A stretch of 64,000 nucleotides of DNA from Polaromonas sp. (GTDB lineage Bacteria; Pseudomonadota; Gammaproteobacteria; Burkholderiales; Burkholderiaceae_C), in NCBI GenBank assembly GCA_021731285.1, contig JAKFXR010000062.1:1-64000 (forward strand), written 5' to 3'. Positions 29,579-33,393 of the stretch are shown here, one piece after another. Both the position numbers and the translations under genes were made by a program. Position 1 is the first letter of the stretch. Each line of letters opens with the position of its first letter. The notes beneath the pieces were generated by a model. The model made no database searches. It saw nothing but the letters and a program-made list of their open reading frames with translations, and was not told where the DNA came from.

Positions 29579-31033
29579 ATGCTTAACCTGAACCGCAAAC
29601 TCCGTCGTTTTTGCTTCGCCGCAGCCGGTGCGCTGGCACTGGTCCCGGCATTGACTCTGGTGTCGGCCCAGCCGGCCATGGCGCAAAGCCGCAACCTGCC
29701 CGACTTCACCGATCTGGTGGAGATGGTCGGGCCCTCCGTGGTCAATATCCGCACGCTGGAGAAAAGCAAGCCTGGGGCGGCAGGCAATGTGGACGAGCAG
29801 ATGCTGGAATTTTTCCGCCGCTTTGGCATTCCTGTTCCGCCCAACATGCCGCGCCAGCCACGACCCGACCGGCAGGAAGAGGAGCAGCCGCGCGGCGTGG
29901 GTTCGGGTTTTATCCTGACTTCCGATGGCCTCGTCATGACCAACGCCCATGTGGTTGAGGGCGCCGATGAGGTGCTCGTGACCTTGCCTGACAAGCGCGA
30001 ATTCAAGGCCAAAATTATCGGCACCGACAAACGCACCGACGTGGCGGTCGTCAAGATTGAGGCGACCGGCCTGCCGGCTGTGAAAATTGGCGACGCCAAC
30101 CGCATGCGGGTGGGCGAATGGGTGATGGCCATTGGCTCGCCTTTCGGCCTGGAGAACACCGTTACCGCAGGCATTGTCAGCGCCAAGCAGCGTGACACCG
30201 GCGACTACCTGCCATTCATCCAGACCGATGTCGCCATCAACCCCGGCAACTCTGGCGGCCCGCTCATCAACATGCGTGGAGAAGTCGTCGGTATCAACAG
30301 CCAGATTTACTCGCGCTCAGGCGGCTTTCAGGGCATTTCATTTGCCATCCCGATTGACGAAGCCACCCGCGTTGCCGACCAGTTGCGCAGCACAGGGCGT
30401 GTCACGCGCGGACGCATTGGCGTTCAGATTGACCAGGTCAGTAAGGACGTGGCCGAATCCATTGGTCTGGGCAAGGCGCAGGGTGCACTGGTGCGCGGCG
30501 TTGAGGCTGGCTCACCGGCGGAAAAGGCGGGCATTGAGGCTGGCGACATCATCACCCGCTTTGAGGGCAAGATCATCGACAAGGCCACAGATCTCCCGCG
30601 GATGGTGGGCAACGTCAAGCCTGGTACCAAGTCCATGGTGACCGTGTTCCGGCGCGGCGCCGCCCGCGATGTGAGCGTGACGATTGGTGAGGTAGAAGCC
30701 GAAAAACCCGTGCGCAAGGCCCAGGCGCCCGAGCCCAAGCCTCCTGTAGCCGGCCCTGCGCAGGTTCTGGGTCTGGTCGTCAGCGAGATCCCCGACACCC
30801 TGAAAAAGGAGCTCAAGCTCAAAGGCGGGGTCAAGGTGGATACCAGTGAAAGCTCCGCGGCGCGCGCCGGTCTGCGTGAGGGCGATGTGATTCTGGCCAT
30901 TGCCAACACCGAAATCGCCGGTGTCAGGGACTTCGAGGCGGCGCTTGCGAAAATCGACAAGAGCAAGCCGGTCAATGTGCTGTTTCGGCGTGGAGAGTGG
31001 ACGCAATACGCCCTGATTCGTACGCCCCGCTGA
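29579..31033 (+). CDS. mucD: Periplasmic serine protease DegP/MucD (Do family)
   Basis: 484-residue HtrA-family protease/chaperone. Signal peptide to about residue 35. The triad is H124 (TNAHVV), D154 (RTDVAVVK) and S225 (NPGNSGGPL). Two PDZ domains follow (about 265-370 and 390-480). Placed at the end of the rpoE operon as in Pseudomonas mucD. An intrinsic terminator follows. Confidence 0.96.
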   Translation: MLNLNRKLRRFCFAAAGALALVPALTLVSAQPAMAQSRNLPDFTDLVEMVGPSVVNIRTLEKSKPGAAGNVDEQMLEFFRRFGIPVPPNMPRQPRPDRQEEEQPRGVGSGFILTSDGLVMTNAHVVEGADEVLVTLPDKREFKAKIIGTDKRTDVAVVKIEATGLPAVKIGDANRMRVGEWVMAIGSPFGLENTVTAGIVSAKQRDTGDYLPFIQTDVAINPGNSGGPLINMRGEVVGINSQIYSRSGGFQGISFAIPIDEATRVADQLRSTGRVTRGRIGVQIDQVSKDVAESIGLGKAQGALVRGVEAGSPAEKAGIEAGDIITRFEGKIIDKATDLPRMVGNVKPGTKSMVTVFRRGAARDVSVTIGEVEAEKPVRKAQAPEPKPPVAGPAQVLGLVVSEIPDTLKKELKLKGGVKVDTSESSAARAGLREGDVILAIANTEIAGVRDFEAALAKIDKSKPVNVLFRRGEWTQYALIRTPR

Positions 31034-31076
31034 TCCTGCCCCTGGTGTGCCTGCCTGGAAGCAGGGCGCCCAAATG

Positions 31077-31110
31077 AACCCCCATATCCTGTCAAGGGTT
31101 GGGGGTTTTG
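31077..31110 (+). terminator. Intrinsic terminator after mucD
   Basis: Stem AACCCCC/GGGGGTT with a 17-base loop containing a smaller hairpin, followed by TTTTG. It lies 44 bases after the mucD stop. Confidence 0.65.
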
Positions 31111-31448
31111 CTTTAAATGAGCCTGGATATCAAGAATAAATAAATATTTTTCTGCGTCATCGGCTGTCAATATGTTTGCGTCTGCTAACTTTCCGTGTTT
31201 CCTTCATGACGGTTTTGGTAGAATGAGTCCGGAAATCTGATTGTTTAGGCATATCAAGGCCTCATAAAATCAGCTTCGACACGGAATACAGGCGATTCAC
31301 CGATGATCCACAGATCACCCACAAGTTGTCCAGAGGCTCTTCGTTAAAATTGTGAATAAGTTGTGGATAAAAGTCGTGTTGCTGCCTTGCAACGAGAAAA
31401 ATTTGGCAATTTCGAGGCTATGCGAAGTGGGCTTTTTGCCTACAATGA

Positions 31449-31517
31449 AGTTTCCAACTATCGCAGTTGCCATAGATTGTTGGTTCAGGGCGCGTCACAA
31501 GTGACGCGCCCTTTTTT
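31449..31517 (+). ncRNA. Candidate small RNA or lepA leader
   Basis: Hypothesis only. TACAAT at 31441-31446 could act as a -10 box and the strong terminator at 31488-31517 would end a transcript of roughly 65-70 nt. The -35 region is weak. A longer transcript from TAGAAT at 31219 (about 285 nt) is an alternative. No RNA family was recognised. Confidence 0.3.
31488..31517 (+). terminator. Strong intrinsic terminator upstream of lepA
   Basis: Perfect 11-bp stem GGGCGCGTCAC/GTGACGCGCCC directly followed by six T. It lies 65 bases before the lepA start and 370 bases after the mucD terminator, so it must end either a small RNA or a leader transcript. Confidence 0.85.
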
Positions 31518-31581
31518 ATGGTTTTTGCGAATTGAGTCCCATCTCTTCGCAGTATTTTCAAGCACTTAGGCGTTCCCCTTG

Positions 31582-33393
31582 ATGAATCACATCAGAAATT
31601 TTTCGATCATTGCGCACATTGATCACGGCAAATCCACGCTCGCCGATCGCATCATCCAGCGCTGCGGTGGTTTGCAGGACAGAGAGATGAGTGCGCAGGT
31701 TCTTGATTCGATGGATCTGGAAAAGGAGCGTGGGATAACCATCAAGGCGCAGACCGCTGCGCTCAAATACAAAGCACTCGACGGCCAGATTTACAACCTC
31801 AATCTGATCGACACGCCGGGTCACGTGGACTTCTCTTATGAAGTGAGCCGTTCGCTGTCGGCGTGTGAGGGCGCGCTGCTGGTGGTGGACGCGAGCCAGG
31901 GCGTTGAAGCGCAGACCGTCGCCAATTGCTACACCGCGCTCGACCTGGGCGTGACCGTGGTGCCGGTCCTCAACAAAATGGATTTGCCGAATGCAGATCC
32001 CGACAACGCCAAGCAGGAAATCGAAGACGTGATCGGCATCGACGCGACGGATGCGATTCCGTGCTCGGCCAAAACCGGCATGGGCATCGACGAAATCCTG
32101 GAAGCGGTGATTGCCAGGATGCCGGCGCCCCAGGGCAATCCTGACGGTCCGCTGCGCGCCATGATTGTCGACAGCTGGTACGACGCCTATGTGGGCGTGG
32201 TCATGCTGGTGCGTGTGGTCGATGGCCGGCTGGTCAAGGGCGAGCGCATCAAGCTGATGGCCAGCGGAGCCACCTACAACGCCGAGCAACTCGGCGTGTT
32301 CACGCCGCACACCGAGCAGCGCCCGGCGCTGGAAGCGGGCGAAGTCGGTTTCATCATTGCCGGCATCAAGGAACTGCAGGCGGCCCGCGTTGGCGACACC
32401 GTGACCCTGATCAAACCCGGCACCGGCGGCGCGGCGGCCACGGCCACCCAGGCCTTGCCGGGCTTCAAGGAAATCCAGCCGCAGGTGTTTGCCGGCCTGT
32501 ACCCGACCGAAGCCAGCGAGTACGACTCCCTGCGCGACGCCCTTGAAAAGCTCAAGCTCAACGATGCCTCGCTGCATTACGAGCCCGAAGTCAGCCAGGC
32601 GCTGGGCTTCGGTTTTCGTTGCGGCTTTCTGGGCCTGCTGCACATGGAGATCGTCCAGCAGCGGCTTGAGCGCGAATTTGACCAGGACCTGATCACCACC
32701 GCGCCCAGCGTCGTCTATGAAGTGCTGCAGGCTGACGGCAGCGTCATCAAGGTCGAAAATCCGTCCAAAATTCCGGATGCCGGCAGGATCAACGAGATCC
32801 GCGAACCCATTGTGACCGTGCATTTGTACATGCCGCAGGACTATGTGGGCGCCGTCATGACCCTGGCCGTTCTCAAGCGCGGCGTGCAGATGAACATGGC
32901 CTACCACGGCAAGCAGGTCATGCTGACCTACGAGATGCCCCTTGGCGAGATCGTGCTGGACTTCTTTGACAAGCTGAAATCGGTCTCGCGCGGTTATGCG
33001 TCCATGGACTATGAGTTCAAGGAGTTCCGTGCCTCCGACGTGGTCAAGGTCGATATTTTGCTCAACGGCGAGAAGGTCGACGCGCTGTCCATCATTGTTC
33101 ACCGCAGCCAGTCGGCCTACCGGGGCCGGGCGGTGGTGGGCAAGATGCGCGAGATCATTTCACGTCAGCAGTTCGACGTGGCGATCCAGGCGGCCATCGG
33201 GGCCAACATCATTGCGCGTGAGACAATCAAGGCGCTGCGCAAGAACGTGATTGCCAAGTGTTACGGCGGCGACATTTCACGCAAGAAGAAGCTTCTTGAA
33301 AAACAAAAAGCGGGTAAAAAACGCATGAAACAAATCGGTTCCGTCGAAGTGCCCCAGGAGGCCTTCCTGGCCATTTTGCAGGTAGAAGAGTAA
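31582..33393 (+). CDS. lepA: Elongation factor 4 (LepA)
   Basis: Ribosome-associated GTPase affecting translation under stress. 603 residues from ATG 31582 (a TTG directly before it is in frame). G1 [10 protein letters not shown]3 DTPGHVDF, G4 NKMDLPNAD. The LepA-specific C-terminal domain contains [13 protein letters not shown]. It overlaps lepB by one base, the conserved lepA-lepB pair. Confidence 0.97.

Follow-up and report, generated by a model that had tools for sequence, protein, structure and literature searches.

The initiator DnaA binds 9-mer boxes of the TTATNCACA type, and DnaA-ATP assembles on boxes in tandem. Clusters of such boxes mark the promoters of Bacillus subtilis sda and Escherichia coli nrdAB, and a replication origin is expected to carry a DnaA-trio or a similar unwinding element beside its boxes. 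DnaA boxes are also described for mioC, and in E. coli datA and the DARS loci keep conserved relative distances to oriC (PMC4585315). On the side of RNA regulators, loop 1 of the Chlamydia small RNA IhtA is described as occluding the AUG of hctA within the sequence CAUGGCG (PMC4355289). The locus described here occupies the gap of about 550 bp between mucD/degP and lepA in the window, the whole stretch of 64,000 nucleotides analysed, and holds a box array, a palindrome, a promoter-like element and a short terminated unit (Table 1).

The initial annotation had drawn attention to two pairs of DnaA-box-like motifs in this gap, and its description largely stands. Both reverse motifs match TTATNCACA exactly (31351-31359 and 31362-31370, the starts having been given one base too low), the forward motifs at 31304 and 31315 carry one and two mismatches, and the 11-bp phasing is found within the reverse set and within the forward set. 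A third forward motif at 31326 had been missed, so that the forward set consists of three motifs in exact 11-bp steps. The surroundings are AT-rich as stated (44% GC at 31298-31400 against 61% for the window), and the two GATC sites are present at 31305 and 31313. Motifs with at most one mismatch are not enriched in the window as a whole (18 found, 18.7 expected), and a same-strand exact pair no more than 12 bp apart arises in none of 300 dinucleotide shuffles of the window. The proposed scan of the whole genome, performed on an assembly of 4.0 Mb that is 87.6% complete, gives a divided answer: exact TTATNCACA sites are not in genome-wide excess (19 against 20 for the reversed pattern), but the pair is the sole one with less than 188 bp between its members. 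The only other exact sites within 200 bp of each other in this genome are C104:11930 and 12118, beside an ORF that by eye resembles hemE. A further exact box (C21:39683) lies about 11 bp behind the stop codon of an ORF, perhaps hda, whose 277-aa product matches a DnaA domain.

Table 1. Positions of the genes and predicted elements around the mucD/degP–lepA gap
Feature	Position	Strand	Basis
mucD/degP, Do-family serine endopeptidase, upstream gene	29579..31033	+	NCBIfam TIGR02037, 492 bits, cut-off 416
Separate terminator-like hairpin, 3' of mucD/degP	31076..31111	+	sequence
F1, DnaA-like forward motif, TGATCCACA, 1 mismatch	31304..31312	+	sequence; kept in close relatives
F2, DnaA-like forward motif, TCACCCACA, 2 mismatches, 11 bp past F1	31315..31323	+	sequence; kept in close relatives
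F3, DnaA-like forward motif, TTGTCCAGA, 2 mismatches, 11 bp past F2	31326..31334	+	sequence and alignment
R2, reverse DnaA box, TTATTCACA, exact	31351..31359	-	sequence and conservation
R1, reverse DnaA box, TTATCCACA, exact, 11 bp from R2	31362..31370	-	sequence and conservation
Palindrome GTTGC-N6-GCAAC, putative operator	31378..31393	.	conservation
Weak -35-like element, TATGCG (TGTACG in many relatives)	31419..31424	+	alignment, inferred
-10 element TACAAT, inferred promoter of the small RNA	31441..31446	+	near-invariant in relatives
Small RNA gene	31450..31517	+	5' end predicted by the -10 element, 3' end by the terminator
Conserved RNA loop GCAGTTGCCAT, reverse complement of the H1-like gene start ATGGCAACTGC	31463..31473	+	alignment
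Intrinsic terminator ending the small RNA, with a perfect stem and a T run	31487..31518	+	sequence
lepA (elongation factor 4), downstream gene	31582..33393	+	NCBIfam TIGR01393, 966 bits, cut-off 534

With the gap as query, blastn gives matches in 129 of the 200 family genomes. Of these matches, many span 31298-31517 and others cover only about 31430-31517. The alignment of the 30 best loci resolves into two blocks, one comprising the box array and the palindrome, the other TTTTTGCCTACAATGAAG followed by an RNA-like unit. Folded alone, this unit reaches -28.8 kcal/mol, with a z-score of -5.1. A covariance model recovers the RNA in 171 of the 200 family genomes, in a single copy each except for G021, which has two. 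We extended the covariance search to the order, with filters able to lose weak matches: all 12 same-family genomes score at least 71 bits, and in other families weak matches appear in 36 of 387 genomes, the best at 29.6 bits. A LepA motif lies near the match in 11 of the 12 same-family loci, as against none of the 18 other-family loci fetched. Within the sample, the RNA unit is restricted to one family, which we take to be Comamonadaceae together with the Rubrivivax/Roseateles group from the carrier genera among the matches listed. These genera, read from 80 of the 119 matches listed, include Polaromonas, Acidovorax, Variovorax, Rhodoferax, Limnohabitans, Delftia, Comamonas, Ramlibacter, Rubrivivax, Roseateles and Ideonella, along with one MAG labelled Alphaproteobacteria. 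The lepA gene of the window is closest, among the matches listed, to that of a Polaromonas MAG (89.6%).

The terminator stem of the RNA is near-perfect across the alignment, with 99.3% of cells paired. Hairpin 1 lacks covariation support, and its outer helix has only 39% paired cells on alignment A1, because the alignment misplaces this helix in one clade. The loop sequence GCAGTTGCCA of the RNA is found within 60 nt of the -10 element in 84 of 90 loci. An ATG overlapping the -10 element raised the possibility of a small peptide, which we rejected since the frame differs among the six relatives translated. Rfam returns nine matches for the region itself, all below gathering scores and taken as chance (AsrC, RefA9, a snoRNA and a miRNA among them), and none for 10 related loci. 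Membership in the RF02278 family was likewise rejected, the score being 17.8 bits where the family requires 50; a copy of this "toxic small RNA" that does exceed the cut-off is present elsewhere in the same genome (C9:12444-12507, 60.5 bits). The published Burkholderia small RNA ncS35 belongs to a different locus, as far as its description goes (PMC5760752); Table 1 of PMC5688073 lists RNAs by position, with no adjacent genes to match against this locus, and the main text of a Bordetella small-RNA paper (PMC3110155) makes no mention of lepA or dnaA. In the titles and abstract beginnings of the open-access papers listed we found neither this RNA nor a DnaA-controlled small RNA of Comamonadaceae. 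In five RNA-negative family loci (L295, L293, L296, L303 and L306), the 420 bp upstream of lepA when read by eye still contain an element resembling TACAAT or TAAAAT, together with a terminator and a hairpin unlike that of the RNA, as if the unit at this position had diverged or been replaced.

Conservation of the reverse pair gives stronger support for DnaA sites than the chance statistics do. Our comparison covered 90 RNA-bearing loci, made up of the 30 top blastn matches and 60 taken from lower in the list. A tandem reverse pair with at most three mismatches in all is present in 82 of them and in none of the 90 flank controls or 90 shuffle controls; in 76 loci the pair has zero to two mismatches to the DnaA consensus over both boxes. 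A second set, which overlaps the first, consists of 119 listed loci, of which 3 were too short and were left out; 112 of the remaining 116 have the pair, at -92 to -88 from the -10 element. After removal of duplicates between the sets, the pair is found in 184 of 196 distinct loci. The eight RNA-positive loci of the first set that lack it indicate that the RNA is able to exist without the boxes, and in three of these eight (L073, L077 and L081) the promoter lies 7–20 bp behind the upstream reading frame.

The forward motifs, whose preservation in relatives the initial annotation had proposed as a check, fare less uniformly: their sequence is kept in close relatives but only partially in the wider family. 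The 25-mer GATCCACAGATCNCCCACAAGTTGT that spans them occurs with at most one mismatch in 26 of the 30 closest loci, and with at most two in 107 of the 196 distinct loci. Measured against the DnaA consensus, the forward motifs of relatives are poor, with no more than 8 of 90 loci within one mismatch at any single position. The reverse pair is accordingly a cluster of TTATNCACA-type 9-mers that is conserved and closer than chance allows, and the forward motifs share in this only as conserved sequence in close relatives. Taken together, the motifs form a real and conserved cluster of probable DnaA binding sites.

The boxes and the RNA are tied to each other in position. Over 167 distinct loci, the start of the reverse pair lies at about -90 relative to the -10 element of the RNA, with a standard deviation of 1.0 bp, and 166 of the 167 fall at -92 to -88. 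In the same 167 loci the distance from terminator to LepA has a standard deviation of 28.1 bp. (The number is what remains of the 196 distinct loci after subtraction of 12 without the pair, 16 without a recognised LepA and 1 without a recognised terminator.) The boxes thus stand at a constant distance from the promoter, as expected of a DnaA-regulated promoter, the promoter itself being read from sequence. The palindrome is about as conserved as the boxes, with GTTG-N6-9-CAAC present in 103 of 116 loci of the second set, and the stretch from the palindrome to the promoter is hardly conserved. The pair in a strict pattern, CAACA followed by two TTATNNACA at an 11-bp distance, occurs in 61 of the 200 family genomes, with none for the reversed control, and in none of the 387 other-family genomes. 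In 59 of the 61 genomes its location was checked, and there it lies at the RNA and nowhere else. No reverse pair is found within 600 bp upstream of lepA in 15 RNA-negative family genomes or in 15 other-family genomes. The RNA sometimes occurs without the boxes and no pair is seen without the RNA, which is expected if the boxes are the input of the RNA.

The reading that we favor, and regard as reasonably probable, is that the box pair, forward motifs and palindrome form the control region of a gene for a small RNA of about 65 nt, and that this gene is DnaA-regulated. DnaA, probably as DnaA-ATP, would assemble head-to-tail on the phased boxes and would raise or lower the activity of the TACAAT promoter from about 80–100 bp upstream, perhaps together with a protein bound to the palindrome. 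As the -35 element of this promoter is weak, RNA output may follow the level or state of DnaA. DnaA binding and transcription at the locus, like the repression considered further below, are predictions made from sequence.

A datA- or DARS-like locus, where the array titrates DnaA or alters its nucleotide state and the RNA is only a neighbor, would account for the two motif sets, each stepped by 11 bp, that face each other. The position on the chromosome also recalls DARS2: in 14 finished genomes the locus lies at 0.15–0.41 of the chromosome from dnaA, with a median of 0.26 and 10 of the 14 within 0.20–0.30, which would fit a DARS2-like midpoint, a likeness that concerns the distance of this one locus from dnaA. 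We nevertheless regard this explanation as unlikely, because it leaves unexplained why the spacing to the RNA promoter is fixed to within a standard deviation of 1 bp, and because the strict pattern is not seen away from the RNA and no pair precedes lepA in the 15 RNA-negative genomes. datA, DARS1 and DARS2 are not known to serve as the control region for an RNA gene.

Control of lepA by DnaA, another suggestion of the initial annotation, could be only indirect, since what lies between the boxes and lepA is a complete short RNA unit that carries a terminator. In such a scheme the short RNA would be an attenuated lepA leader and DnaA would set transcription into it, which is conceivable because some relatives keep a different short terminated unit before lepA. 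LepA is recognised within 450 bp in 108 of the 119 loci of the second set, 6 of the others being cut and 5 unrecognised. Runs of at least six T within about 110 bp of lepA are present in 7 of 15 RNA-negative and 7 of 15 other-family genomes, several of nine sequences inspected by eye show a hairpin and a T-rich tail behind it, and in L101 the lepA start directly follows a T run. An attenuator is nonetheless improbable in view of the near-perfect terminator stem, for which we see by eye no conserved antiterminator, and of the loose terminator-to-LepA distance. Moreover, the most conserved part of the RNA is the short loop of a hairpin, as in trans-acting RNAs.

That the boxes are bound by some other protein with a liking for such sequence, the palindrome being its main operator, would agree with the palindrome being about as conserved as the boxes, but the tandem 11-bp form of the reverse pair and its closeness to the DnaA consensus in 76 of 90 loci make this very improbable. 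As the initial annotation had noted, no dnaA is nearby; dnaA and dnaN are located on contig C42. The gap between them contains box-like sites and an TAGTAGTAG element, known in the literature as the DnaA-trio. The element is found at dnaA-dnaN in this genome and in 3 of 10 relatives, and none is seen by eye in 31298-31450. GC skew in the finished congener G099, sampled in 20 windows of 20 kb, rises from -0.077 immediately before dnaA through -0.016 immediately behind it to +0.074 at a distance of 0.2 Mb past the gene, and is positive in both windows beside the locus (+0.015 and +0.066), most other windows being near zero; the locus has neither a skew switch nor an adjacent dnaA. The idea of an unlinked or second replication origin, suggested by convergent box-like sets in AT-rich DNA, is therefore hardly credible against an origin-like element with a box at dnaA-dnaN on another contig and a skew switch at dnaA in G099.

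Returning to a DnaA-regulated small RNA, we looked at possible targets. The RNA loop GCAGUUGCCA(U) has its complement in AUGGCAACUGC, the sequence with which histone-H1-like (HC2) and SWIB protein genes begin. The H1-like start sequence ATGGCAACTGC occurs 23 times in three genomes, 3 times inside the RNA itself and 20 times outside, compared with 3 occurrences of the reversed pattern. Six of the 20 outside sites are starts of K/A-rich proteins with a ribosome-binding site and correspond between genomes, two are starts of pilC-like genes, and most others fall within or between other frames. In the proteins of the genome under study, Pfam recognises HC2 (gene at C35:30142, 57.9 bits, cut-off 40) and SWIB (gene at C26:40686, 90.8 bits, cut-off 25), with the HC2-like tail of the SWIB protein below the cut-off; a third protein matches T2SSF. 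The loop complement is carried by the pilC-like start at C3:61400 and by that of the congener G099, and the starts in G164 and G114 differ. Duplex energies amount to -26.3 and -31.2 for the H1-like sites of this genome, -26.6 for pilC and -23.0 to -31.2 for the sites of relatives, against a median of -16.6 and a best value of -27.9 over 91 background starts, figures that are descriptive only because the H1-like sites were picked for complementarity.

As a test of synonymous choice we took K/A-rich genes whose product begins MATA; their start is exact more often where the RNA is present, a contrast that relatedness among the genomes inflates. An exact ATGGCAACTGC start is found in 25 of 26 such genes from 15 RNA-positive genomes and in 9 of 18 from 11 RNA-negative genomes, and a drifted start is found in 1 of the 15 and 7 of the 11 genomes, respectively; the corresponding P values (Fisher, 5e-4 per gene; 0.003 per genome) come from a test conceived after the match was seen and are too small, since clustering of the RNA-negative genomes greatly reduces the number of independent events behind the co-absence as well as the codon test. 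In a lepA tree built from 600 nt, 12 of 15 RNA-negative genomes fall into one group, with about four changes overall; the tree was made without G080 and two of the three outgroups, where the motif was not found, the remaining outgroup falls inside, and 8 of 27 inner forks are weak. The codon test took 80 of 97 hits from RNA-positive genomes (28 of the 29 exact hits and 52 of the 68 inexact ones, the 16 omitted mostly having 11–12 bases from AGGA to ATG) and 32 of 61 from RNA-negative genomes (every one of the 9 exact hits listed and 23 of the 44 inexact ones listed, with 8 further hits, four each in G089 and G117, outside the listing). Half of the RNA-negative K/A-rich starts are still exact, so that part of the match is owed to shared ancestry or to codon bias at the N-terminus. 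As in IhtA, the loop is complementary to an H1-like start codon, and our tentative proposal is that it pairs with the start codons of HC2 and SWIB mRNAs and blocks their translation, which would link nucleoid-protein synthesis to replication.

Covering of these start codons by the small RNA is the weaker step of the proposed mechanism. The full chain, in which DnaA across a large betaproteobacterial group directly sets the amount of an RNA that blocks translation of H1-like and SWIB proteins, and in some species of pilC, and thereby tunes DNA packing to replication, by a start-codon occlusion that would have evolved independently of IhtA, is a speculative scheme that we consider somewhat unlikely to hold in its entirety. 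Promoters under DnaA control, small RNAs and the occlusion of start codons all have precedents of their own; we did not find their combination in the titles and abstract beginnings of the open-access papers listed. The locus suggests that these bacteria tie the making of an RNA, and perhaps that of histone-like DNA-packing proteins, to DNA replication. If the target reading is true, bacterial histone-like proteins would receive a cell-cycle input. At the minimum, the locus represents a widely conserved RNA-like unit with no Rfam match, and accounts for a cluster that could be mistaken for a stray origin.

Compared with known systems, the locus resembles B. subtilis sda and E. coli nrdAB and mioC in having DnaA boxes clustered in or upstream of a promoter; those genes encode proteins, whereas the controlled unit here is a small RNA whose dependence on DnaA is predicted. 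E. coli datA, DARS1 and DARS2 are described as non-coding DnaA-box clusters away from oriC (PMC4585315), as is the array in question. The double-hairpin "toxic" RNAs of RF02278, reported from Betaproteobacteria (PMC5688073), are also very short, have two hairpins and come from related bacteria, but the RNA described here differs in scoring far below the gathering score of that family. IhtA is the nearest known analogue of the proposed start-codon occlusion: both RNAs carry a hairpin whose loop is complementary to the start region of an mRNA for a histone-like protein, and both end in an intrinsic terminator hairpin (PMC4355289). The target of IhtA is hctA, in place of the HC2-type and SWIB genes proposed here, and its control is given as not known in the same source, whereas DnaA boxes lie upstream of the present RNA. 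EcpR1 of Rhizobiales is likewise described as a conserved trans-acting small RNA with a conserved loop and a tie to replication (PMC4414408). EcpR1 represses the dnaA and gcrA mRNAs according to that account; in the arrangement proposed here the order is reversed, with DnaA upstream and the RNA arm standing downstream of the initiator.
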